Shown piece after piece: positions 21,909 to 58,783 of a stretch of 64,000 bases of DNA. The first letter of the stretch is position 1, and every line of letters starts with the position of its first letter. This DNA comes from Arthrobacter sp. MYb229. GTDB taxonomy: Bacteria; Actinomycetota; Actinomycetes; Actinomycetales; Micrococcaceae. The notes below the pieces were generated by a model that saw only the letters and a program-made list of their open reading frames with translations, did no database searches and had not been told where the DNA came from. Both the position numbers and the translations under genes were made by a program. The stretch is taken from assembly GCF_002975405.1 (NCBI RefSeq), contig NZ_PCPS01000002.1, positions 558,001-622,000 of the forward strand. Direction: 5' to 3'.

Positions 21909-24900
21909 ATGCGACGTACAGTTCGCAAGAGGAACGTACCTGCAGGAAACGCGGCGTGGTGGCGTAGACCGTTAGCCTTAGGGGTTGCTTCAACCCTTGT
22001 GGTGTCGAGTTACGGATTACCGGCCATGGCAGATGTCAACACACAACCGGACGAACTAACCGAATCCGCTGCGAGTATCGTCGACCTGAGTCTCTTGGGT
22101 ACCGAACTCGCGGGTGGAGGGCAAACCCGGGCACTGTATCCAAGTGGCCCAGGAACCGATGAAGGCGGACTTGACGTCTCCCTGCTGCAGAATGAACTTC
22201 TGGATCTCGGGCAATTCCCGATCCCAGTAGATCAGTTCATTAACTTTGGCGAACTAGGTGCGCTGGTATCTAGCGCAACCGCTACAGATGCCAAGAACGG
22301 TGAAGCGATCTCCGGCGTAGCGGGAGCTGACGGAGCGATCACCCTCGACGGGGCTCAAGGAGATTTTGGCGTAGCCCGAATCAACTTGCTTGCACTCTTT
22401 GAGGAAGCTGGGATCGATGGATTGACCAGCCTCGCCTTGAGCAAGGCAGAACTCACTGCAGGCGCCGGTGGCGCCTGGGTTGAGGCAGTCGACGGAGTAT
22501 TCCAAGACCCAGATGGATTCGGCGGCAAGGGCCAGTATCGGGTGGCGGAAGCCAACCTGGAACTGCAGTCGCCAGCGGTCGAAGAGATGGCCTCTCAGTT
22601 GTACGATGCCATCGGCACGGTCGATACCACGCTGGAAGACACCATCAATGGGTTGTCGCAAATCACCGACCTGCTTGACGTGCTTAGTGCACTCCCAGTG
22701 GGAGCGACTTTTGATCTCACGGTCGATTCCAACATTCAGGACGAAGTGTTCAATGAGCTGCTAGCGCAGCCAATCACCTCGAAAAACGAGGTGCTGAGCA
22801 TCGATCTGAGCACCGGAACCGTTTACGTGGATCTGGATAAGGCCTATTCGGGCGAACGCCCAGTGGGTATGGACCTGCCTGATGGCATTAACAACCAGGC
22901 TCCGAACACGGAACTGATCACCACTGACCTCTACCCGATCATCGCGGAAACCATCCACGACTTGATCGAAGAGGTCGTTGCGGTAGCAACCAACGCGATC
23001 GAAGGCGCGATCTCCAGTATCACGCTGACCGTTGATGCTTCGCTTGACACACCATTGGGTGGCGCCGAGGCGTCCTGGACCGTTAACCTCGGTGGCGAAG
23101 AAGTTGCTCCGGTAACTTGTACCCCATCGGGTGCTGGCGGAGCGGTTGCTTGTGCCACATTGGAAGCGGCGATGAACACGGCAGTGATCCCGGCGGTCAA
23201 CACCGCGATCATTCCGATTCGCGACTTCTTGGTGGGCGATGGCGGGCATGCGATCTATGATCTGTTGATCACGGATATCAAAACCAATGCGATGACCGTG
23301 CCAATCCGTACGGTATTGGAACCAGTGTTCACCTTGGCGCAGCAAGCAGTTTCGCTGCAGCTGAATCGACAGGTAGAAACTACCTGTGAAGCGCCAGACG
23401 GCACGTTAGTCGACAGCCTCGAAGTTTCGGCTTTGAGCTTGGGCGTTGTGCAGGCAGTTGACGCAGGTCGGTTGAACTTGGGCTCGGCCGGTGTGCGTAT
23501 CGGCGCTTGCGCCGCGGACATCAACCCGGCGATTACCGTCAACCCGGGAGAGGTTCCAGCAGGAACCTCGACCAACGTTGAAGGAACCGGCTTCACTCCT
23601 AGCGGCGATGTCGAGCTTCAGCTGGTTGATGCTGAGGGCAACCCAGTGGGCGACCCGATCATCGTTCCTGCAGATGCCAATGGCGATTTCCCGTCCACCG
23701 AGCTACCGGTTGACGCCACTGTTCCTCCCGGAACTTACGATGTGCGTGCCACCGATGTCATCACCGGCACTCCGATCACTCAGCCACTTGTGGTTATTGA
23801 ACCGGATGCGCAGGCGTTGAACCTCGGTCTGGATCCGCCAACCGTTCCAGCAGGTGACCCAACCAACGCAACCGGTTCCGGATACACCCCCGAGGGTCCG
23901 GTAACCGTTCAGCTGATCGATCCGGCCGGTAACCCGGTTGGCGATCCGATCATCACCACCGCAGACGTCGACGGAAACTTCACCGTTCCCGTCCCGACCC
24001 AGGCTGACGCTCAGCCAGGCGACTACACCGTTCGCGGTACCGACGACACCACCACCAACTCTGCTGATGCAACGTTGACCGTGGTTGAAGCGGGCACTCC
24101 GATCCTCACCGCGGATCCGGTCTCTGTTGAGTCGGGTCAGGCGACCGATGTGACCGGTACCGATTTTGCACCGAATGACACCGTGACTGTTCAGTTGGAA
24201 GATGCTGCTGGTGCACCTGTTGGTGACCCGGTAGAGGTTCCTACTGATGAGAATGGTGCATTCACCACTCCGTTGACCGTTCCTGAAGGAACGACTCCGG
24301 GTGACTACACCGTCAAGGGCACTGATACTCAGGGCGGCGAGGCTACGACTCCGCTGGCCGTGACTGAGCCTACTGGTGGTAATGAACCATCGATCACCGC
24401 GGATCCGGTCTCTGTTGAGTCGGGTCAGGCGACCGATGTGACCGGTACCGATTTTGCACCGAATGACACCGTGACTGTTCAGTTGGAAGATGCTGCTGGT
24501 GCACCTGTTGGTGACCCGGTAGAGGTTCCTACTGATGAGAATGGTGCATTCACCACTCCGTTGACCGTTCCTGAAGGAACGACTCCGGGTGACTACACCG
24601 TCAAGGGCACCGACGCAGATGGTGGCGAAGCCACTACTCCGCTGACCGTGACCGATGGCAGCACCGGTGGCAGCGACGGTTCGATCTCGGGTCGTACCTG
24701 GGTTGACACCAACGAAGATGGTTTGCAGGATGCAGGCGAGTCCGCCTTAGGTGGCATCACCGTCAACCTGCTGGATGCCGAGGGCAACCCGGTCAATGGT
24801 GCAGATGGCAACGCCACTAGCACCCTGACCGATGACAACGGCAATTACTCCTTCACCGACCTGTCGTACGGCGAGTACATCGTCGAGGTCATCAACCCCG

Positions 24901-27863
24901 ATGGCACCGGGTTCTCCCCGGTCAACGTGGGCGACGATGCAACTCTCGACTCCGATGTGAACCCGGATAACGGCCGCACCGTTGCACTGGCATTGACCTC
25001 GGAGGCTCCGGCCGCTGAGAACATCGATGCCGGCATCACCGGTGTTGTGTTCACTTCCCCGACCGTGACCGTGGATCCGTCCGAGGTTGCGCCAGGTGAG
25101 GACACTCAGGTCACCGGTGACGGCTTCAAGCCGAACTCACCGGTTGAGGTTCAGCTGCAAGACGCCGATGGCAATCCTGTGGGCGAGCCGATCATCGTCG
25201 AAACCGACGAGAATGGCCACTTCACCACGCCGCTGACCGTCCCCGAGGGCACCACTCCAGGTGAGCTCGAGGTAGTGGCAACCGATGAAGATGGCGGCAG
25301 CGACACCGCTCCGCTGAATGTCATCGCCGGTAACGGTGGCGACAACAACGGTGTGTTGGGCGACCGTGTCTGGCGCGATCTGAATGCCGACGGCATCCAG
25401 GATGATGGCGAGGCCGGCCTGGCCGGTGTCACTGTGAACCTGCTGGACGCCGAGGGCAACGCGATCGAGGATGTAGACGGCAATGCCGTGAGCACCGTAA
25501 CCGATGAGAATGGCAACTACCTCTTCGAGGCCCTGGCCCACGGCGACTATGTCGTCGGGTTCGTGGCTCCGGAAGGTGCCTCCTTCTCGCCAGCCTTGGT
25601 TGGGGATGACCGTGCGGTTGATTCGGACGCCCAGGAAGATGGCCGCACCGCGGTTGTCACACTGACCGCCGAGGCTGCTGCGGATCTGACCATCGACGCC
25701 GGTGTGGTTGACGCTCCGGCAGTGACCGAACCGACCGTGACCGTGGATCCGTCCGAGGTTGCGCCAGGTGAGGAAACTCAGGTCACCGGTGACGGATTCG
25801 ATCCGAACACCGAAGTTGAGGTCACCATCGTTGATGAGAACGGCGATGTTATCGCCGGTCCGATCACCGTTGAGACCGACGAGAATGGCCACTTCACCAC
25901 CCCGATCACCGTTCCGGAAGGCACCACCCCGGGCGAGTACGAGGTAGTGGCCGAGGACGAGAACGGCAACACGGATTCCACTCCGCTGACCGTCATCGAT
26001 GGCAACATCGGTGGTGGCGACGGTTCGATCTCCGGCCGCACTTGGGTCGATGCGAACAAGGATGGTTTGCAGGATGAAGGCGAGTCCGCCCTGGGCGGCA
26101 TCACCATCAACCTGCTGGACGCCGAGGGCAACCCGGTCAATGACGCAGATGGCAACGCCATCAGCACCGTAACCGATTCCAACGGCATCTACGCCTTCTC
26201 GGATCTGGTCGATGGCGAGTACATCGTCGAGGTCATCAAGCCCGATGGCACCGGGTTCTCCCCGGTCAACGTGGGAGACGATGCAACTCGCGACTCCGAC
26301 GTGAATCCGGATAACGGCCGCACCGTTGCACTGGCAGTGACCTCGGAGGCTCCGGCCGCTGAGAACATCGATGCCGGTATCACCGATGTTGAGTTCACTT
26401 CCCCGACCGTGACCGTGGATCCGTCCGAGGTTGCGCCAGGTGAGGACACTCAGGTCACCGGTGACGGGTTCGATCCGAACACCGAAGTCGAGGTGACTCT
26501 GGTCGACGAGAACGGTGACGTGATTGCCGGCCCGATCACCGTTGAGACGGATGAGAATGGCCACTTCACCACTCCGCTGACCGTTCCCGAGGGTATCGAA
26601 CTTGGTGAATACGAGGTAGTGGCCGAGGACGAGAACGGCAACACGGATTCCACTCCGCTGACCGTCATCGATGGCAACATCGGCGGGGGAAACAACGGAA
26701 AGATCGGTGACTTCGTCTTCAACGACGCCAACGGCAACGGACTGCAGGACGAAGGCGAAGCCGGCGTTTCCGGCATCACCGTCAACCTGCTGGACGCCGA
26801 GGGCAACCCGGCCAATGATGCAGATGGCAACGCCATCAGCACCAAGACCGCAGAAGACGGCAGCTACTGGCTGCAGATGCTGCCGCATGGTGAGTACATC
26901 GTTGAGTTCGTGGCTCCGGAAGGTGCCTCGTTCTCCCCAGCATTGGTCGGCGATGACCGTGGTATTGACTCGGATGCTCAGGAGAATGGCCGCACCGCGG
27001 TTATTGCACTGACCGCCGAAGCTTCCACGATCAACACCGTAGATGCCGGTCTGACCGGTTTGGGTGGCGATGGACAGCATGATCCAAACATCACCGTTGA
27101 TCCGAAGGACGTCGCCCCGGGTGACGAACTGGACGTTCACGGCGAGGGATTCCCTCCGAACACCGATATCATCGTCGAGATCCGCGACAAGGACGGCAAC
27201 GTCATTGAAACCGTGGAAACCGAAACCGATGATCAGGGCGAGTTCGATGTGAAGATCACCGTGCCGGAAGGAATCGAGAACGGCGAATATGACGTTCACG
27301 CCTACGACCAGGACGGCAACGAGGACAGCGAGCGCATCAACGTCCAGCAGAAGCCGGTCGACACCTGCGAAGCCGAACAGTCCCTGACCGTTCAGCCTAA
27401 CAAGGTCAAGGGCGGCGAGTCGATCAAGGTCATCGGCAAGGGCTTCACCAAGGGTGAAACCCTGACCCTGATGATCAACTCAATCGACGGCAAGGTCGAG
27501 GTAGCGGCGAAGGATTCAATCCCCGGCGCCCTGACCATCACCGTGGATGAGAACTGCTCCTTCGAAATTGACATCACCATCCCGGAGAACACTCCGGAAG
27601 GTGATTACGAGGTCATCGTGAATGACGAAGACGGGAAGAAGCAGGATTCTGCTCCATTCACCGTCATCGGCGACAACGACGGCAGCGGCAATGGAGATGG
27701 CAACGGCAACGGAGACGGCAACGGAAACAACAACGGGGACAACGATAACGACGGACTGGCTAACACCGGTGCACAGGTTATCGCCTACTCGCTGCTGGGT
27801 CTGCTGCTGCTCGGTGCAGGTGTCTTGCTGACCCTGAACCGCCGCCGCGCACACAAGAGCTAG
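21909..27863 (+). CDS. Giant LAxTG cell-wall-anchored repeat protein (choice-of-anchor G N-terminus, Ig-like and SdrD B-like repeats)
   Basis: A 1984-residue surface protein. A basic-hydrophobic signal peptide (to about residue 40) is followed by a choice-of-anchor-G-like domain (SLLGTELAGGGQTRALYP onwards, to about 530). Then come Ig-like units starting near 538, 636, 732, 828, 1050, 1275, 1497, 1725 and 1825, recognised by DPSEVAPGE..QVTGDGF-type openings. SdrD B-like units alternate with them from about 924, 1148, 1372 and 1597, each opening like ISGRTWVDTNEDGLQDAGES with calcium-type Asp/Asn loops. An Asn/Asp/Gly linker (about 1921-1949) leads to LANTG at 1950-1954, a hydrophobic span and RRRAHKS. 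LAxTG signals are used by class E sortases of high-GC Gram-positives. A role in adhesion is inferred. AAGGAGG fixes the ATG. Confidence 0.88.
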   Translation: MRRTVRKRNVPAGNAAWWRRPLALGVASTLVVSSYGLPAMADVNTQPDELTESAASIVDLSLLGTELAGGGQTRALYPSGPGTDEGGLDVSLLQNELLDLGQFPIPVDQFINFGELGALVSSATATDAKNGEAISGVAGADGAITLDGAQGDFGVARINLLALFEEAGIDGLTSLALSKAELTAGAGGAWVEAVDGVFQDPDGFGGKGQYRVAEANLELQSPAVEEMASQLYDAIGTVDTTLEDTINGLSQITDLLDVLSALPVGATFDLTVDSNIQDEVFNELLAQPITSKNEVLSIDLSTGTVYVDLDKAYSGERPVGMDLPDGINNQAPNTELITTDLYPIIAETIHDLIEEVVAVATNAIEGAISSITLTVDASLDTPLGGAEASWTVNLGGEEVAPVTCTPSGAGGAVACATLEAAMNTAVIPAVNTAIIPIRDFLVGDGGHAIYDLLITDIKTNAMTVPIRTVLEPVFTLAQQAVSLQLNRQVETTCEAPDGTLVDSLEVSALSLGVVQAVDAGRLNLGSAGVRIGACAADINPAITVNPGEVPAGTSTNVEGTGFTPSGDVELQLVDAEGNPVGDPIIVPADANGDFPSTELPVDATVPPGTYDVRATDVITGTPITQPLVVIEPDAQALNLGLDPPTVPAGDPTNATGSGYTPEGPVTVQLIDPAGNPVGDPIITTADVDGNFTVPVPTQADAQPGDYTVRGTDDTTTNSADATLTVVEAGTPILTADPVSVESGQATDVTGTDFAPNDTVTVQLEDAAGAPVGDPVEVPTDENGAFTTPLTVPEGTTPGDYTVKGTDTQGGEATTPLAVTEPTGGNEPSITADPVSVESGQATDVTGTDFAPNDTVTVQLEDAAGAPVGDPVEVPTDENGAFTTPLTVPEGTTPGDYTVKGTDADGGEATTPLTVTDGSTGGSDGSISGRTWVDTNEDGLQDAGESALGGITVNLLDAEGNPVNGADGNATSTLTDDNGNYSFTDLSYGEYIVEVINPDGTGFSPVNVGDDATLDSDVNPDNGRTVALALTSEAPAAENIDAGITGVVFTSPTVTVDPSEVAPGEDTQVTGDGFKPNSPVEVQLQDADGNPVGEPIIVETDENGHFTTPLTVPEGTTPGELEVVATDEDGGSDTAPLNVIAGNGGDNNGVLGDRVWRDLNADGIQDDGEAGLAGVTVNLLDAEGNAIEDVDGNAVSTVTDENGNYLFEALAHGDYVVGFVAPEGASFSPALVGDDRAVDSDAQEDGRTAVVTLTAEAAADLTIDAGVVDAPAVTEPTVTVDPSEVAPGEETQVTGDGFDPNTEVEVTIVDENGDVIAGPITVETDENGHFTTPITVPEGTTPGEYEVVAEDENGNTDSTPLTVIDGNIGGGDGSISGRTWVDANKDGLQDEGESALGGITINLLDAEGNPVNDADGNAISTVTDSNGIYAFSDLVDGEYIVEVIKPDGTGFSPVNVGDDATRDSDVNPDNGRTVALAVTSEAPAAENIDAGITDVEFTSPTVTVDPSEVAPGEDTQVTGDGFDPNTEVEVTLVDENGDVIAGPITVETDENGHFTTPLTVPEGIELGEYEVVAEDENGNTDSTPLTVIDGNIGGGNNGKIGDFVFNDANGNGLQDEGEAGVSGITVNLLDAEGNPANDADGNAISTKTAEDGSYWLQMLPHGEYIVEFVAPEGASFSPALVGDDRGIDSDAQENGRTAVIALTAEASTINTVDAGLTGLGGDGQHDPNITVDPKDVAPGDELDVHGEGFPPNTDIIVEIRDKDGNVIETVETETDDQGEFDVKITVPEGIENGEYDVHAYDQDGNEDSERINVQQKPVDTCEAEQSLTVQPNKVKGGESIKVIGKGFTKGETLTLMINSIDGKVEVAAKDSIPGALTITVDENCSFEIDITIPENTPEGDYEVIVNDEDGKKQDSAPFTVIGDNDGSGNGDGNGNGDGNGNNNGDNDNDGLANTGAQVIAYSLLGLLLLGAGVLLTLNRRRAHKS
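24106..24610 (+). repeat. Exact 217-base direct repeat inside the surface protein gene
   Basis: Bases 24106-24322 recur unchanged at 24394-24610, an offset of 288 bases (96 codons), encoding two consecutive Ig-like units. Synonymous sites are also identical, unlike the older repeats around them, which points to recent duplication or gene conversion. Unequal recombination would keep the frame and change length by 96 residues. Confidence 0.92.
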
Positions 27864-49408: not shown

Positions 49409-50446
49409 TTAGTTGGTGAAGGGAACACGCTCCCAGCTGAGAATTTCTGCACCCTGTGCTGAGTTCGGCGCGACGCTCACGCGCAGCCACTCTCTTGATG
49501 TTGCGGCGCCCTCGACGGTGACCCGCTGCAAGTTCGGAACCGGGTCAACGCCGTAGACCTCTAGCCACGGTGAACCGGCGGCCAGCGGCGCATCTTCGTT
49601 GAACACGTGGCTGTCGCCATTGACCAGATACACCGGTCCGCCGAAGGCTGCTGACTCGTTGGCCAGGGCCTCGACGAACGACTTGAAGCCTGAAACGGAT
49701 TCGGGGTTTGCCAGGGAATCATCTTCGAACCCGGGGGTGAACATATCTGCCTGGGTCATCACCACTACGGCGCGCGCCTGGGATCGTTTCGCATTGGCGA
49801 ATGTTTCGGCCAGTTGGTCGAGGTTGGCTTCGGTGCGCAGCGCGACTTCTTCCAGCTGTTCGGAGGTTGGTTCGGTCAGTCCGAGCCCAGTCCACGGAGC
49901 CAAGGAGTTATTGGATCCTTGGACGTTCACCACGGAGAAGGCGATACGGTTCTTCGTGAATTGAACGTTTTCCGGTAAACCGATGTCAGCCTGGGAATCT
50001 ACCCGCATGGTGCCGCCCAAGGTCTTGTTTTCGACCGGGAAGAACATCTCACGCAGGGTATACAATCGCTCCAACGGGTTGTAGGCACCGTTATTGGCAC
50101 GGTGGCAGTCAACCCATTCGTTGTCGCCCGGGGTGAATACCAGCGGAGTTTGAAGTCTGTCCAGTTCCTTCCTGACTAGGCCCAGGCGTTCGTCGGTGCA
50201 CCGCTCGGAACCTGCCTTGATATCTCCAACGTGGGCAATGAAGCGAAGCTCGTCTTGCTCGTTGAGTTCACTGACCATGCTGGGGAATTCGGCCAGCTGG
50301 GCTGCGCCGTAAGGGATGTCTCCAATGACACCAAAAGTGTAAGCAGACTCTGCGGAGCCCGCGGAATTCGCAATTGCTGGGGCCGCCGGGGCGACGAGAA
50401 TTGCGCAGGCTAGAGCGGCGAGACCGGGTAGGAATCGATTACGCAT
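49409..50446 (-). CDS. Secreted metallophosphoesterase-like protein
   Basis: A 345-residue protein with a Sec signal peptide (to about residue 26, AAPAIANS). A calcineurin-like fold follows: GVIGDIPYG, HVGDIKAG, FTPGDNEWVDCH and VNGDSHVF mark the four metal-ligand blocks, but each differs from the textbook DxH, GDxxD, GNHD and GHxH forms; GDNEW in place of GNHE is typical of one bacterial subgroup. The protein is predicted to act outside the membrane on an unknown phosphoester. It carries its own terminator and is 217 bases downstream of the HicB-like gene. Confidence 0.8.
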   Translation of the reverse strand: MRNRFLPGLAALACAILVAPAAPAIANSAGSAESAYTFGVIGDIPYGAAQLAEFPSMVSELNEQDELRFIAHVGDIKAGSERCTDERLGLVRKELDRLQTPLVFTPGDNEWVDCHRANNGAYNPLERLYTLREMFFPVENKTLGGTMRVDSQADIGLPENVQFTKNRIAFSVVNVQGSNNSLAPWTGLGLTEPTSEQLEEVALRTEANLDQLAETFANAKRSQARAVVVMTQADMFTPGFEDDSLANPESVSGFKSFVEALANESAAFGGPVYLVNGDSHVFNEDAPLAAGSPWLEVYGVDPVPNLQRVTVEGAATSREWLRVSVAPNSAQGAEILSWERVPFTN

Positions 50447-51078: not shown

Positions 51079-52992
51079 CTACTTCGCCAAAGGCGCGCCG
51101 TCCTGGCCGACCGGGAAGGTCACCACATCGTCGTATACGCGTCGTTCGGTGTGTTCAAGCTGGTATTCCGAATCCAACTTCGGGAAGACGTATACCGGGG
51201 TCAAAGTGAGCTCTGCTCCTTTGGCCTTCTTCGCGATGTCGATTTGCAGGTGTCCGTAGTGCAGACCGCCGGATACGAGCTGTGCTACGCCGTTTTCATC
51301 CTCTTTCCAGGTCTCTGGCTGATCTGCCGGGGCTGACCACTGTGAATGCGAGTTGAAGCGGAGCGGTTCGTACTCGCCCTGAGCATTCTGCACCAACTTT
51401 TCGCCACGCAGGCCGTCGGCGGCCACCCCCACATCATAGGAATGGAAGCCTCGTCCGTCGCCGTCCGCATCTACCCAAGAGCGCTCGAACATTTCATCAT
51501 GGCCGGAGATGACTGCGGCGACACCATGATCCTCGAACATTGGCGAGTAGGCACGCATTGCGGTGCCGGACTGGTTATCGGGGTGCTCATGGTTCGGTGG
51601 GGTGCCGTGCACACCGTTGGAATAAGCCGAATGGTGGAATTGGACGAGCACAATCTGGCCGTCGGCGCGGGCTTCGGCCAATTGCTTCTCGGTCCAGTCC
51701 CATTGGGCGGACTGCGCATCCATATTCGGCAGGTCAACCTCTTGCTCGGTTGAGCCGGGGAAAAGATCCTTGAAGCCCTGAACGTAGGATTCAAAGGTGA
51801 ATTGCCCCTGGGTGTCGGTGGACTGGTTCTCGGCGGTCAGGTTGGTGTCGTCCCCGGAGAATTTTTCGCCGGACAAGGTGCCGGTGTCGGTGTTCTCATC
51901 GGGTCGGCCATTGGTGGAGTCCAAGGTCAGGACGGTGACCGGCCCATGATCCACCCGGTAGTAGGAGCCCTTGTGTTCGGGGTGCTCCGGGTCCTGCGGC
52001 AAGGAGAAATAATCCAGGAAGCGGTTGCGTGAAATTACCGCGGGGGTGCGGTCTGCGTCCGAACCGTAGCCACCGTTCAGGGCCGCATAGGTTTCCCAGT
52101 TGCCCAATGCCGGAAGCAACGGAACATTGGAGGCTAGATCGGAGTGTTCCCCGGCGACATGTCCGAAGAACTCATCCCATGCCGGTTGGTATCCCGAGCC
52201 CTGTGTCAGGTCCCCGGCCATCATGACCAGATCCGGGTTGGCAGCCTGAACATGCTTGAGGTTTTCGTTGAAAGCGGTGGACTGGTCCAGCGGATAGCGC
52301 AAGGTCGGCTGGCCATACCGGGTGGTCATTCCGAAAGTCTCGGCCCATTGCGATCCGTCGCCTGGGCGCTGCAAGGACTCGGAGGTATATCCGTTGACCG
52401 GGGAAAGCTCCCATTCACGGTGCTCGGTGCGTCCGCGCGGTTCGGTCTCCGAGTCGGAGAAGGCGACAATGCGGATGTTCTTCCAGGATTTTCCATCTGG
52501 CGCTGTTTCGAAAGCGGCAGTATGCGTCTGTCCTGATTGGGTCACGGTGTAGTTGTATTTCTTGCCTGGTTTGAGGCCCTCAATGGTCACCGAATGCTTG
52601 TAATTGGAATTCGACTTCAGCCAGGAGCCCTGTTCAAGTCCGGGGATGTGTTGATCCAGTTCTGCCTGGGTGTACTCCATCAAGTCCAGGTATTCAGGCT
52701 CGCTGCGTTGGACGCTGCTATTTCCTTTGCCAGGCTGATTGCCGAGACCCGGCCCCTGGACTGAGAGGGTTCCTGGCTGATCGGTTTCGCTGATCCAGTT
52801 GATGGTCATCGAGGTCGAGCCTGGTGCCTGCAGGTAGGGCAGAACACGAAATCCGAGTTCTGGAGATTTGGCGGTGGACGCTGGGAAGGACATGGGGTCG
52901 CTGGCTGGCAGGGCTGCCGCCGGTGTAGCAGGCGCGAAGGCCAGAGGGAGCAGAACGGCGGCCGCGAGCGCGACGGCGGTGGGCTTGTGCAT
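51079..52992 (-). CDS. Secreted purple-acid-phosphatase-like metallophosphoesterase with Fn3 domain
   Basis: A 637-residue exported protein: signal peptide (to about residue 28), an N-terminal Fn3-type purple acid phosphatase domain (VLPYLQAPGSTSMTINWISE, then LKPGKKYNYTVTQSGQTHTA) and a calcineurin-like domain. Metal-ligand blocks are VAFSDSETE, MMAGDLTQG, PALGNWETY, LVQFHHSAY and ISGHDEMFE; DxH is DSE, GNHE is GNWE and GHxH is GHDE, so the site is altered. ATG 52992 has AGGAG upstream. It may release phosphate from organic sources. No Pho box was recognised in front. Confidence 0.8.
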   Translation of the reverse strand: MHKPTAVALAAAVLLPLAFAPATPAAALPASDPMSFPASTAKSPELGFRVLPYLQAPGSTSMTINWISETDQPGTLSVQGPGLGNQPGKGNSSVQRSEPEYLDLMEYTQAELDQHIPGLEQGSWLKSNSNYKHSVTIEGLKPGKKYNYTVTQSGQTHTAAFETAPDGKSWKNIRIVAFSDSETEPRGRTEHREWELSPVNGYTSESLQRPGDGSQWAETFGMTTRYGQPTLRYPLDQSTAFNENLKHVQAANPDLVMMAGDLTQGSGYQPAWDEFFGHVAGEHSDLASNVPLLPALGNWETYAALNGGYGSDADRTPAVISRNRFLDYFSLPQDPEHPEHKGSYYRVDHGPVTVLTLDSTNGRPDENTDTGTLSGEKFSGDDTNLTAENQSTDTQGQFTFESYVQGFKDLFPGSTEQEVDLPNMDAQSAQWDWTEKQLAEARADGQIVLVQFHHSAYSNGVHGTPPNHEHPDNQSGTAMRAYSPMFEDHGVAAVISGHDEMFERSWVDADGDGRGFHSYDVGVAADGLRGEKLVQNAQGEYEPLRFNSHSQWSAPADQPETWKEDENGVAQLVSGGLHYGHLQIDIAKKAKGAELTLTPVYVFPKLDSEYQLEHTERRVYDDVVTFPVGQDGAPLAK

Positions 52993-53313
52993 GAGCAATT
53001 CTCCTGTGCGAGTGTGATCGCCCGGGTTGGCGGGCAATACCTCGAGGATGCACAGCGCGAATGGACGAAACGTGCACGGCAGGAGTCGAAGAGGTGAACC
53101 TGCCCGGTGATCCTAATCTCCGTTTCGTGGGAAATTCTGGTTTGCCGGGTGCGGGATCGGATTTTCGCGGTCCATGACATTGGTCCTGCGCGCTTCCAGC
53201 CTTCCCGAATGTTGACTGCGTCACGTTTGAGATATACCTTTAATCACATTTTGATATATGAGGTTCGATATCGAATGTGCGGTGTCGAGTGAACCTTCTG
53301 AGAGGGAATCTAC
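52993..53313. other. Divergent gap between phosphatase and YkvI-like gene, with palindrome
   Basis: The half near the YkvI-like gene is AT-rich and holds the 12-base palindrome TTCGATATCGAA (53264-53275), 39 bases before that start, plus TTGAGA (53227) and TGATAT (53252) that could be promoter elements with a loose 19-base spacer. The palindrome is a possible operator; no regulator gene is adjacent. Confidence 0.4.
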
Positions 53314-54596: not shown

Positions 54597-54914
54597 CTAG
54601 TTGCCGACGGATTCGAGGGTGTACCCGGCTTCTTCGATCGCGTTGCGTATGATTTCCTGCTCAACGGCGCCGCTGGTGCTGAGGATTGCCGTGGAGATCC
54701 CCTTCGCGTCCAAGATGATCTCGACGTTCTGGACCTCGGGGATTTCGTTGAGTTCTTCAGTTACCGAAGAGACGCAATGGCCGCAGGTCATTCCCGAGAT
54801 CTTCAGTTCGGTCTGGCTGATGATGGGGGTAGCCTCCGGACGCGGAATGATCTGCAGTCCTTGGCTGGTGGACTTCGAGTTATCGGAACATCCGCAGTTG
54901 CAGGCATGGCTCAT
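54597..54914 (-). CDS. copZ: Copper chaperone (CopZ/HMA domain) with Cys-rich N-terminus
   Basis: A 105-residue protein. The HMA domain carries the copper site MTCGHC (Cys44, Cys47) and the usual beta-alpha-beta-beta-alpha-beta order through EEAGYTLESV. Before it lies an extra HACNCGC segment (Cys5, Cys7, Cys9), which could bind further Cu(I). It follows csoR by 43 bases, forming a csoR-copZ operon under CsoR control. No CopA ATPase is in the window. Confidence 0.9.
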   Translation of the reverse strand: MSHACNCGCSDNSKSTSQGLQIIPRPEATPIISQTELKISGMTCGHCVSSVTEELNEIPEVQNVEIILDAKGISTAILSTSGAVEQEIIRNAIEEAGYTLESVGN

Positions 54915-54957: not shown

Positions 54958-55287
54958 TCAGCGCAGCAACCGGGAGATGGCTGCGGTGGCTTCCGAGATC
55001 TTGTCTTGAACGATGCTCGCATCCCCGGACTGGATTGATTCCTCGGCGGCACCCACCACGCAGTGGCCGATGTGGTCTTCGACTAGTTGGAGGCTGACCT
55101 TGTGCAAGGCTGCGTTGATGGCTGAGATCTGGGTGAGAATATCAATGCAATACTTGTCCTCATCAACCATGCGGGCAACTCCGCGCACCTGGCCTTCGAT
55201 ACGGTTCAAGCGCTTTCGCAGCGCCTCCTTTTCAGGAGTGTATCCGTGGGGTGCCGTGGGTTGCGCCTGCTTAGTTTGAGAGTCCAT
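54958..55287 (-). CDS. csoR: Copper-sensing repressor CsoR
   Basis: A 109-residue all-helical regulator with the Cu(I) triad Cys47, His72 and Cys76 (YCIDIL and EDHIGHC), as in Mycobacterium tuberculosis CsoR, plus the DNA-contact segment RLNRIEGQVRGVARM. When Cu(I) binds, the tetramer leaves DNA. It is the first gene of the csoR-copZ operon and its operator lies just upstream, so it is autoregulated. Confidence 0.94.
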   Translation of the reverse strand: MDSQTKQAQPTAPHGYTPEKEALRKRLNRIEGQVRGVARMVDEDKYCIDILTQISAINAALHKVSLQLVEDHIGHCVVGAAEESIQSGDASIVQDKISEATAAISRLLR

Positions 55288-55624: not shown

Positions 55625-56767
55625 GTGAGCCACAATGAACTTCGCGTGCGTCCGATATCCAGCACCGAGCACTCCGCGTTCCTTGCAACTGCGCAAGATG
55701 TCAGCTTCCTTCAGCGTCCCGAATGGGCGCAGGTCAAGGGGGGATGGCGGGGCGAATCGCTCGGTTGGTTCGAAAGTGACACCCTCGTTGGAGTCGCCCT
55801 GGTCCTGCACCGCCATGCGCCGGTGATCAAAAAGACCCTCGCCTACATACCCGACGGCCCGGTCATTGATTTCACAACCTATGACCCGCAGGGTGTGCTT
55901 TCTATTCTCGCTAGCTATCTGAAAAACCGCGGCGCCTTCCAGCTGCGCCTCGGCCCAGGGCTGGCGATGCGCACCTGGGGTGCGGCGGCTGTGCGAAAAG
56001 CATTTGGTAAGGAAGAGCTTGCTTCATTAGCGGACCTGGAAACCGTGTCGGTCAGTGAAGAAGCCCACAAGCTCAACGAGGCGCTCGGCGACTTGGGATT
56101 CACCAAGCAGGACGTCGGAATGGACTTCGCCGCGGGGCAACCGGAGTACGTGGCCCGGGTTGCGCTACAAGATGCCGAGGGAAACCAGCTGGATACCGAG
56201 CAGGTCATGGCTTCCTACTCCTCATCCACTCGCAACGAAACGCGTAAGTCGCTCAAGAGCGAGCTCAAGGTTGAAATCGGCGATACCCAGGACATGGCAC
56301 GCTTCCATGCACTGTATAACCACACGGCCGAACGCCAAGAGTTCACCGGTCGCCCGCTGAGCTATTTCGAAAAGATGCACACGGTACTTAATGCTGCGGT
56401 ACCCGGCTCCTGCACCCTCTACATCGCTAGCCACGAGGGCGTCGACCTGGCTTCGGCTATTGTGCTGCGCTCAAGCAACCTTGCGTGGTATCTCTACGGC
56501 GCCTCGTCTTCCGAACAGCGCAAGCTCTTCGCGCCCAAGGCTCTGATGCATCACATGATTTCGGATTCCACCGAGGCTGGATGCAGGTACCTGGACCAGG
56601 GCGGGGTGAGCGCCACCTTGGATAGCGCACACCATCTGGCAGGGCTGACCAAGTTCAAGACCAACACCGGCTGCGATATCGTGCAAACCAATGGCGAATG
56701 GGATCTGGCGCTCAACAAACCACTTGCCTGGGCATTTGAGAAGTACATGAACTGGCGACAGAAGTAG
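55625..56767 (+). CDS. FemX-type peptidoglycan bridge aminoacyltransferase
   Basis: A 380-residue FemABX-family (tandem GNAT fold) enzyme: SFLQRPEWAQVKGGW opens the first domain, YSSSTRNETRKSLKSE is the conserved R-x-x-x-R/K loop, and LYGASSSEQRKLFAPKALMHHMI with GCRYLDQGG form the acceptor region. It should transfer an amino acid from aminoacyl-tRNA to the Lys side chain of lipid-linked peptidoglycan precursor in the cytoplasm. The start is GTG 55625; upstream codons lack coding character. The ATP-grasp ligase starts 14 bases after its stop, making a bridge-building pair. Confidence 0.85.
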   Translation: MSHNELRVRPISSTEHSAFLATAQDVSFLQRPEWAQVKGGWRGESLGWFESDTLVGVALVLHRHAPVIKKTLAYIPDGPVIDFTTYDPQGVLSILASYLKNRGAFQLRLGPGLAMRTWGAAAVRKAFGKEELASLADLETVSVSEEAHKLNEALGDLGFTKQDVGMDFAAGQPEYVARVALQDAEGNQLDTEQVMASYSSSTRNETRKSLKSELKVEIGDTQDMARFHALYNHTAERQEFTGRPLSYFEKMHTVLNAAVPGSCTLYIASHEGVDLASAIVLRSSNLAWYLYGASSSEQRKLFAPKALMHHMISDSTEAGCRYLDQGGVSATLDSAHHLAGLTKFKTNTGCDIVQTNGEWDLALNKPLAWAFEKYMNWRQK

Positions 56768-56781
56768 GAACCAAAAACCTT

Positions 56782-58056
56782 ATGGCAATCGAGAATTCTC
56801 AGCCTTTCGTTCCCGTTATTCTTGGCGGAGATATCGGCACCTACACCCTCGCCCGCGAATTCTATGAGGCATACCAGGTGCGCTCGGTCGTTGTGCCTGC
56901 CTCAGGCAACGGGGTAATCGAGCACTCGGTGGCCATCGAACTGCATCCCATCGGGTCCATGGTTGACCAGGGGCGGGTAGTTGAAGAACTCATCTCCCTG
57001 GCCCAAGAGCTTAACGCCGAAGTGGATCGACCGCTGATGCTCTTCGGTTCCCTCGATTTCCATATCATGCTGATCGCCGAACACCGTGCGGTGTTGAGTG
57101 AATATTTTGTCATCCCTTACCCGGAACTGGGAACCATCGAAGGCGCCGCGCTGAAGGAGAACTTCTACGCGCTCGCCGACCGGCTGGGAATTGCGCACCC
57201 GCGCACCGCCGTTTACCGGGCCGGAGAAGACCTGCAGGAATTGGCGCAGTCGCTGACCTTCCCGCTGATCGGCAAGCCCTCGAGCTCGGGGGACTGGATC
57301 GCCGCCAAGTTCGAAGGCAAGCAGAAAATCCACACCCTGCGGAGCATCGCCGAACTTGAGGACCTGCTCACTCGTATCGACGCGAGCGGCTACACCTCGG
57401 GGTATATCCTGCAGGAATACATTCCCGGTTCGGATGACGCGATGCGTCTGTGCACTTATTTCGCCACTCAGGACAAGAAGGTCATCTTCGCCGGATACGG
57501 CGAGGTGGTGGTCGAAGAGCACGCGCCGCTGGTGCTCGGTAATTCCGCAGCCATCGTCACCGGGCAGCATGACCAGATGTCCCAAGATGGTGCGCGCCTG
57601 CTCGAAGAACTCGGCTGGCAGGGGATCGCGATGATCGATGCCAAATACGACCACCGCGATGGATCCATCAAATTCTTTGAAATCAATCCTCGTCTGGGAC
57701 GCAATCATTATTACCTGACCGCGGCCGGAGTTAATCCTGCGCGTTTTTACGTCACCGAGTTCCTTGGCGTCGAGTTTGATCGCTCAGACCCGCACACCGA
57801 TGCGGTCCTCGATACCGGGATCGGAATCTTGCAGCTAAGCCGCCAGCATCTGTTCACCGTGCTCCCGCACCATTTGCTGCGCCGCTTCTTGGATAGCGAA
57901 ACCGGGCAGAAGGCTGCCGCATTGCTGAAGTCCGGGAAGGTTTCCAACCCGCTGAAATTCAAGGCAGAGAAGCATCCTCGCCGGAAGTTCTACCTGGTGC
58001 TCAATGCGGTCAACCACTACCGCAAGTACAAGAAATTCCCGCCGCGTAGCCTGTAG
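56782..58056 (+). CDS. ATP-grasp ligase, D-aspartate ligase (Asl)-like peptidoglycan bridge enzyme
   Basis: A 424-residue ATP-grasp protein. The N-terminal FVPVILGGDIGTYTLAREFYEA closely resembles the start of the Enterococcus faecium D-aspartate ligase Aslfm as remembered. PLIGKPSSSGDW gives the ATP lysine, and KYDHRDGSIKFFEINPRLGR holds the magnesium ligands Glu and Asn. It is predicted to add an acidic amino acid, activated as an acyl phosphate, to the peptidoglycan side chain. Coupled to FemX, it would complete an A4-alpha Lys-X-Glu or Lys-Asp bridge. The length equals the family norm. Confidence 0.8.
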   Translation: MAIENSQPFVPVILGGDIGTYTLAREFYEAYQVRSVVVPASGNGVIEHSVAIELHPIGSMVDQGRVVEELISLAQELNAEVDRPLMLFGSLDFHIMLIAEHRAVLSEYFVIPYPELGTIEGAALKENFYALADRLGIAHPRTAVYRAGEDLQELAQSLTFPLIGKPSSSGDWIAAKFEGKQKIHTLRSIAELEDLLTRIDASGYTSGYILQEYIPGSDDAMRLCTYFATQDKKVIFAGYGEVVVEEHAPLVLGNSAAIVTGQHDQMSQDGARLLEELGWQGIAMIDAKYDHRDGSIKFFEINPRLGRNHYYLTAAGVNPARFYVTEFLGVEFDRSDPHTDAVLDTGIGILQLSRQHLFTVLPHHLLRRFLDSETGQKAAALLKSGKVSNPLKFKAEKHPRRKFYLVLNAVNHYRKYKKFPPRSL

Positions 58057-58077: not shown

Positions 58078-58101
58078 CAGCCTAGGCCTCAGCCTAGGCT
58101 G
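58078..58101. terminator. Hairpin between convergent Asl-like and CGNR genes
   Basis: CAGCCTAGGC (58078-58087) pairs perfectly with GCCTAGGCTG (58092-58101) around CTCA; it overlaps the CGNR stop. Confidence 0.6.
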
Positions 58102-58690
58102 AGCTCTTTAACGCCTTCTCGCGTTTGCGTGCATAAGCACGAGCGGCGCGGACTCGGTCCCCGCAGCGGGTCGAGCACCACTGCCGCCGCCCATGGGTTC
58201 TCAGCAAGAACCGCTGGCAGGGCTCGGCCTCGCATTGTGCCAGTAACGCTGACTCTTCCGAAGCTAGAAGCGTCGCGGCATCTTCGGTGATCACCGACAT
58301 CGCATATTCCACCAGGCGCGTGACCGGGTGCTCCGTCGAGCGGTAGAACCCGTTGTCGGGGGAGTAGCGCAGCAGCGGAATATGCGGGGCCGCGGTTAGC
58401 GCCTTGTTTAACCGCTCCAGTATCTGCGGATCGAAAGGCTGTTGCGCTGCGCTCATGGAGAAGGCTTCACGCAGGTCTGCGCGCAATCCGCTGAGCCTGT
58501 TCTGGCAGTAGGACTGCAATGCGGCATCTTCGTCAACCAGCTCGCGCCTCTTGAGCCAGGCGGTCGTTTCCTCTGGGGAATCCAGCTCGTCGACAATCTT
58601 CCCGCCGGGTAGGTGGAGCACGCTGTTGACCAGGTCGAGGCTCAGGTGCTTTTGTGTGCCGGGGGCTGGGGGTAGCAATGCTTCGGACAT
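58094..58690 (-). CDS. CGNR zinc-finger/ABATE-domain regulator
   Basis: A 198-residue protein. The ABATE domain (LSLDLVNSVLHLPGGKIVDELD near the start) is followed by a CGNR-type finger: CEAEPC, then WCSTRCGDRVRAARAYARKRE, with GDR in place of GNR. It is the second such protein in the window. It is divergent from the LLM flavin oxidoreductase, with CGTGA...TCACG half-sites in the gap, so it likely controls that operon. ATG 58690 is used; ATG 58699 is possible. Confidence 0.85.
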   Translation of the reverse strand: MSEALLPPAPGTQKHLSLDLVNSVLHLPGGKIVDELDSPEETTAWLKRRELVDEDAALQSYCQNRLSGLRADLREAFSMSAAQQPFDPQILERLNKALTAAPHIPLLRYSPDNGFYRSTEHPVTRLVEYAMSVITEDAATLLASEESALLAQCEAEPCQRFLLRTHGRRQWCSTRCGDRVRAARAYARKREKALKSSA

Positions 58691-58783
58691 GTATCTCATG
58701 GTATCAGTAGATATTTATCGTGAGGTCGTGTTACTTTGATATCACGCTAGAAATAGATTTTATCCGTGATAAAGAGGTTTTAC

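Follow-up and report, generated by a model that had tools for sequence, protein, structure and literature searches.

A femX and ATP-grasp ligase gene pair of Arthrobacter sp. MYb229 predicted to build a Lys-Ala-Glu interpeptide bridge

A stretch of 64,000 nucleotides from the genome of Arthrobacter sp. MYb229 (contig NZ_PCPS01000002.1, positions 558,001 to 622,000; hereafter the window) carries a femX-like gene followed by the gene for an ATP-grasp carboxylate-amine ligase that appears to belong to the Asl family. The two products very probably build an interpeptide bridge of the A4-alpha type, Lys-Ala-Glu, in two chemically different steps. FemX would attach a single tRNA-borne amino acid, most likely L-Ala, to the precursor Lys at its epsilon-amino group. 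The ligase would convert a side-chain carboxylate of Glu (most likely the L form) into an acyl phosphate and couple it to the alpha-amino group left free on the Ala added by FemX, and the amino group of the Glu would then serve as the acceptor in transpeptidation. The ligase probably uses glutamate, with Ala in place of Lys as its acceptor and perhaps also with a donor of changed handedness.

A fuller proposal, which we favour with less assurance, is that an Asl-family ligase adds L-Glu without tRNA to an Ala placed by FemX, and that in Paeniglutamicibacter and Galactobacter the bridge is switched between two alleles, the ligase being exchanged together with femX because the acceptor must match. 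The substrates, the order of the steps and the chirality are predictions, whereas gene identity, family membership, conservation, co-occurrence, a swap at the locus and the failure to detect an aspartate racemase are observations.

The genes of the pair are:

55625..56767, + strand: femX-like gene, 380 aa, GTG start, with a PF02388 match
56782..58056, + strand: gene for a putative Asl-family ATP-grasp carboxylate-amine ligase, 424 aa, type I (FemX-coupled), by homology to Lactobacillales ligases

The window's open reading frames (ORFs) place femX and the ligase gene in tandem, the first ending at 56767 and the second starting at 56782, and the gap is indeed the 14 bases read in the initial annotation of this DNA. 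The FemX frame stays open upstream to 55358; the GTG at 55625 nevertheless looks a good start, because the relatives at loci L013, L015 and L017 have an ORF of exactly 380 aa starting at the same residue. The genome comprises 4.0 Mb in 23 contigs, and its closest named relatives by ligase identity are Arthrobacter sp. MYb213 (87%) and Glutamicibacter ardleyensis (86%). A phage or defence origin of the gene pair was rejected, PHROGs and PADLOC giving no match at E values up to 0.01.

Families of the two proteins

FemX matches the FemAB family PF02388 with an E value of 7.2e-44 (150.7 bits, cut-off 24) and is the sole FemAB gene detected in the genome, where it was matched as two pieces of one frame. 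A single gene of this kind fits a single tRNA-derived residue in the bridge. Against the equivalog NF047883 (Lys N6-alanyltransferase) the score is 85.9 bits, below the cut-off of 500 bits; the protein probably works like FemX, yet by that model it is not an NF047883 equivalog. Its PDB matches are 6snr (lipid II:glycine glycyltransferase) and the FemX structure 1ne9, which we take to be of Weissella origin. Residues K38, R243, Y247 and Y291 are identical to positions 36, 211, 215 and 256 of 1ne9, as counted by hand on the printed pairwise alignment, and these positions presumably bind the UDP-precursor.

The ligase alone matched no Pfam or NCBIfam profile over cut-off. A profile of 41 sequences of the ligase family matched 13 PDB sequences at E values up to 0.01; their names are carbamoyl-phosphate synthase, Ddl/VanA type, L-amino acid ligase, and biotin and pyruvate carboxylase, all of which we take to denote ATP-grasp enzymes. 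The ligase matches 68 records of the plasmid collection, of which 12 span at least 80% of its length. The four best records are one gene from Subdoligranulum and three from Lactobacillales, with 28-32% identity, 93-98% coverage and E values of 1e-49 to 9e-53; for the three Lactobacillales genes the identity is 28-30% over the same coverage (E 1e-49 to 2e-52). The next matches are Priestia genes annotated as carbamoyl-phosphate synthase, with 84% coverage and E 2e-19.

An amino acid racemase lies directly upstream of the L. curvatus ligase gene and asnB upstream of that of L. crispatus, while the L. fermentum gene has neither as a neighbour. According to a passage of PMC4155827, AslA is the ATP-grasp enzyme of the D-Asp bridge, racD of L. 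lactis is in the same operon and asnH amidates D-Asp. Since one of the Lactobacillales genes has a racemase neighbour, as in this described arrangement of aslA and racD, and another an asnB neighbour, we infer that the Lactobacillales ligases are AslA orthologues and treat them as such.

Across the 41 ligase rows, the three Lactobacillales genes included, 29 alignment columns are invariant. K165, D286, N302, R304 and R307 of the ligase are the same in 41/41 rows, and position 300 is E in all but two of the three Lactobacillales rows, which have D. The roles that we presume for these positions, as the ATP lysine and in metal and phosphate binding, are assigned from Ddl. An identity as a carbamoyl-phosphate synthase-like enzyme or a Ddl was rejected, as the scores against such enzymes are low and well short of the cut-offs and the Lactobacillales ligases align over nearly the full length. 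Judged by that alignment, the ligase would be a member of the Asl (D-aspartate ligase) family, and the resemblance to D-aspartate ligase noted in the initial annotation holds up. The alignment to a non-Asl family that the annotation had set as a test was not seen in this comparison, which was made with the Lactobacillales genes and not with the assayed Asl proteins of Enterococcus faecium and Lactococcus lactis.

Distribution and a locus of two types

A relative of the ligase is present in 82 of 245 genomes of the window's family, in 13 of 31 genera, and the tandem of femX and ligase is found in all 17 listed genomes of Glutamicibacter, which is the window's own genus in all counts. A match better than 1e-40 was taken as a close FemX; among the 245 genomes the weakest match counted was 1.9e-46 and the next below it 1.2e-18. 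By this measure 63 of the 82 genomes with the ligase have a close FemX, against 10 of the 163 without (Fisher p 1.5e-30, a value that overstates independence as the genomes are related). In 41 of the 63 genomes with both genes the pair is at most 1 kb apart, 27 times in tandem and 14 times divergently, so the adjacency is not chance.

The bridge locus adjoins csoR in Glutamicibacter, Paeniglutamicibacter and Galactobacter. The genes that flank the pair in the window are:

54597..54914, - strand: copZ-like heavy-metal-associated protein, a flanking landmark (PF00403, E 4.2e-12 on 54597-54887; gene start inferred from the listed ORF)
54958..55287, - strand: csoR-type metal-sensitive repressor, a landmark outside the pathway (PF02583, E 3.3e-29)
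58094..58699, - strand: ABATE/CGNR zinc-finger regulator, downstream and convergent, outside the pathway (PF07336 and PF11706 over cut-off)

Among the locus pairs listed, the site beside csoR has two states in Paeniglutamicibacter and Galactobacter. Paeniglutamicibacter gangotriensis (L082) and P. antarcticus (L066) have copA, copZ and csoR (all on the - strand), femX, the ligase and a glyoxalase-like gene (- strand), whereas in P. sulfureus (L104) and P. psychrophenolicus (L081) a lone ligase comes 83 bases after copA-copZ-csoR, and then the same glyoxalase-like gene. Between the two kinds of locus CopA is 82-89% identical and the ligases 47-49%. DNA collinearity of L082 with L104 stops at about the femX start and returns downstream of the ligase, with short matches inside the ligase. 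Galactobacter repeats the pattern, again with csoR and the glyoxalase-like gene as borders: femX and a ligase occupy the site in G. caseinivorans (L071), and G. valiniphilus (L086) has a lone ligase in an orientation opposite to its flanks, with CopA 76% and the ligase 45% identical. Across the swap in both genera, ligase identity is 45-49% and that of the flanking CopA 76-89%. One site thus holds either femX with a type I ligase or a type II ligase alone.

In a tree of 56 ligases, built by a quick method with SH-aLRT support and no bootstrap, the seven FemX-less ligases of Paeniglutamicibacter and Galactobacter form one clade (SH-aLRT 99), and the FemX-coupled ligases of these two genera group with those of Glutamicibacter. 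At least three changes of FemX state are required on this tree. That the absence of femX goes with an exchange of the ligase is as expected if each ligase fits its acceptor, and each may be matched either to the Ala from FemX or directly to Lys. Columns 43, 70, 123, 222, 241 and 420 of the alignment have no residue common to type I (22 rows) and type II (7 rows); columns 222 and 241 (mostly R/E in type I, H/R in type II) are candidates for setting the choice of acceptor.

The initial annotation had proposed a tRNA-dependent FemX step followed by a tRNA-independent step of an Asl-family ligase, and homology, distribution, adjacency and the locus-swap pattern all lend support to this. The locus of two types is new with respect to that annotation. 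The reversed order, in which the ligase would add the acidic residue to Lys and FemX would extend it to Lys-Glu-Ala, can point to the FemX-less relatives, which show that some ligases of the family can act without FemX. It is very improbable, given that the FemX-less ligases of Paeniglutamicibacter and Galactobacter are a separate clade and that the ligase changes with femX at the same site, where a ligase-first pathway would need the loss of femX alone; strain RIT 802, described below, is a possible exception.

Several findings weigh against a FemX-then-ligase pathway. The pair is non-adjacent in 22 of the 63 genomes with both genes (in G016 both lie at contig ends). This and the lack of a Pfam or NCBIfam name for the ligase would also suit a ligase that modifies something else, such as the alpha-carboxyl of the stem D-Glu or a non-peptidoglycan metabolite, with its place near femX incidental; the adjacency in two orientations in the other 41 genomes, the co-occurrence of the genes, the swap at the locus and the alignment with AslA-type genes over nearly the full length make that explanation very improbable. 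For the FemX-then-ligase pathway itself, a further difficulty is that 19 of the 82 ligase genomes lack a close FemX; 13 of them have type II ligases (genus codes g23 and g11), four belong to genus code g13, and the others are G017 (RIT 802) and G122. Conversely, FemX does not need the ligase, as 10 genomes of the family have a close FemX but lack the ligase (nine from genus code g15, one from g8).

Two further cases on this side come from named genomes. Of 92 relatives 78 loci were kept, 35 of these were chosen for the FemX search and 34 were searched, with a close FemX in 17, weak matches in 3 and none in 14. A FemAB profile search (19 genomes in all) left 12 of these 14 without any match; Collinsella tanakaei had a clear FemAB gene, and P. 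sulfureus a weak FemAB-like match of 20.2 bits, or 33.6 with neighbours (cut-off 24). The latter is read as another gene, because P. antarcticus has a similar one beside its true femX. RIT 802 (L073) keeps a ligase of the FemX-coupled type I and gave no FemAB match in either the FemX or the profile search. Its ligase is sister to that of A. rhombi in the ligase tree; the surroundings of femX in A. rhombi are not collinear in RIT 802, so that a loss of femX and an assembly gap cannot be distinguished.

Other arrangements were seen in the same material. In genus code g15, where G136 carries two tandem FemX genes, FemX would act without an acidic residue being added. Scardovia (L117:7407-9576, two Fem genes), Collinsella ihumii (L133:7481-8443), Arcanobacterium (L115:3533-4582) and a metagenome-assembled genome (MAG) of the Actinomycetaceae (L124:3439-4476) have Fem-like genes close to an Asl-family ligase. 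The composite arrangement thus extends beyond the window's family, and bridges made by Fem and ATP-grasp enzymes together may be wider in the Actinomycetota. Three loci of genus code g13, which is probably Nesterenkonia, have two tandem Asl-family ligases each (L135:4290-7564, L136:4250-7387 and L138:4241-7408). No FemX and no racemase match was found in the fetched stretch of these three loci, the genome of L136 having a distant FemX elsewhere, and their bridge perhaps contains two acidic residues.

The donor amino acid

Two strains with published bridges carry the ligase. Table 1 of PMC8878594 gives L-Orn-D-Glu for A. (Cellulomonas) carbonis T26, a strain identified in the same source as CGMCC 1.10786, and L-Orn-D-Asp for A. 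bogoriensis 69B4. These are the strains of loci L099 (C. carbonis CGMCC 1.10786) and L101 (C. bogoriensis 69B4), in both of which an asp_race-type racemase directly follows the ligase, and neither genome gave a FemX or FemAB match. The published one-residue bridges and the FemX-less ligases together support the view that it is the ligase which attaches the dicarboxylic residue. As one of these bridges holds D-Glu and the other D-Asp, the comparison suggests that the family adds Glu as well as Asp. Related bridges have reportedly been found in Jonesia (L-Lys-L-Ser-D-Glu) and Sanguibacter (L-Lys-Ser-D-Glu).

The aspartate racemase profile TIGR00035 (asp_race) was over cut-off in 7 of 33 genomes searched (Actinotalea K2, C. 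carbonis, C. bogoriensis, Georgenia, Adlercreutzia, G. uratoxydans and MYb227) and, as a control, in 6 of 14 well-known genomes. It had no match in the window's own genome, which is one of the 25 Micrococcaceae genomes among those searched; two of the 25 were over cut-off, and 22 of the 24 named Micrococcaceae relatives had no asp_race over cut-off. Two PF01177 members occur in the window's genome. One is MurI, with TIGR00067 over cut-off; the other, a protein of 247 aa encoded next to a transporter, has no NCBIfam match and looks hydantoin-racemase-like. A RacD-like gene stands beside the ligase in 16 loci, the query's own excluded (L095-L099, L101 and L130 are among them), and eight of these are Coriobacteriia of the Adlercreutzia/Parvibacter kind. 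No such neighbour was found in any locus titled or coded Micrococcaceae, within flanks of at most 6 kb per side and in some cases shorter, or in the fetched flanks of the Collinsella, Olsenella and bifidobacterial ligase loci.

Since asp_race is missing from the window's genome and from 22 of its 24 named relatives, and the two strains with published D-bridges have one beside the ligase, D-Asp is unlikely as the donor for the window ligase, and Glu, probably L-Glu, is the likelier one. The initial annotation had left the acidic residue as Glu or Asp; the choice can now be narrowed to Glu, a step beyond that annotation. The absence of a racemase argues against the name D-aspartate ligase and not against membership of the Asl family.

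The same racemase evidence makes it unlikely that an ordinary D-aspartate (or D-glutamate) ligase acts after FemX to give Lys-Ala-D-Asp or Lys-Ala-D-Glu, as in some Bacillota. The chemistry of Glutamicibacter, L-Lys-L-Ala-L-Glu (A4-alpha), also speaks for an L-residue. Several points are in favour of a D-residue. G. uratoxydans and MYb227, both Micrococcaceae, do carry an aspartate racemase, and MurI could supply D-Glu in the window's genome, so that genomics cannot decide L from D. The founders of the Asl family are D-Asp ligases, as a passage of PMC4155827 has it, and D-Asp occurs in the bridge of a related genus (Nesterenkonia jeotgali, L-Lys-Gly-D-Asp, in the description in PMC5288335) and in that of Sporosarcina highlanderae (L-Lys-L-Ala-D-Asp, in the description in PMC10628120). 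An Asl enzyme adding L-Glu would be an exception to the accepted split, stated in a passage of PMC2922099, by which ATP-grasp ligases add D-residues and Fem ligases add Gly and L-residues. The bridge chemistry of Glutamicibacter, Paeniglutamicibacter and Galactobacter was not found among the top-ranked open-access papers, and the A. gangotriensis genome paper gives no bridge type.

Other window proteins, significance and known systems

Elsewhere in the window, a 1984-aa protein encoded at 21909-27863 (+ strand) is rich in SdrD_B-like and prealbumin-like repeats and is likely a large surface protein. A purple acid phosphatase/metallophosphoesterase is encoded at 51079-53037 (- strand); the gene downstream of it, at 49409-50446 (- strand), has no Pfam match, and its product looks like a phosphoesterase on visual inspection.

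Interpeptide bridges are relevant to beta-lactam sensitivity, hydrolase specificity and taxonomy; genera have been defined by the A4-alpha Lys-Ala-Glu type. No paper found among the top-ranked results of open-access text names genes for this bridge. If the proposed pathway is true, genome sequence could reveal the bridge type in the family, and a single locus would account for the difference between Lys-Glu and Lys-Ala-Glu among sister species. The Asl family would then also include enzymes that use L-Glu as donor and, as acceptor, an alpha-amino group put in place by a tRNA-dependent enzyme. The subject is of interest to cell-wall specialists.

The window pair can be set beside three known systems. 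With FemX of Weissella viridescens and FemXAB of Staphylococcus aureus it has the FemAB family in common, and the four precursor-binding residues named above align; unlike in those systems, there is a single Fem enzyme here, coupled to a ligase instead of to more Fem enzymes. Asl/AslA of E. faecium and L. lactis are alike in family by near-full-length alignment, in the conserved ATP-grasp residues and in the predicted role in bridge synthesis. The window ligase differs from them in that no racD partner was found for it and it is paired with femX, and its predicted donor is Glu (likely L) and its predicted acceptor Ala rather than Lys. The pairs of ligase and racemase in Cellulomonas/Actinotalea include a homologue of the window ligase (39-41% identity) and come from strains whose dicarboxylic bridge has been measured; unlike the window pair, they have no FemX, the racemase adjoins the ligase, the acceptor is ornithine and the bridge holds a D-amino acid.

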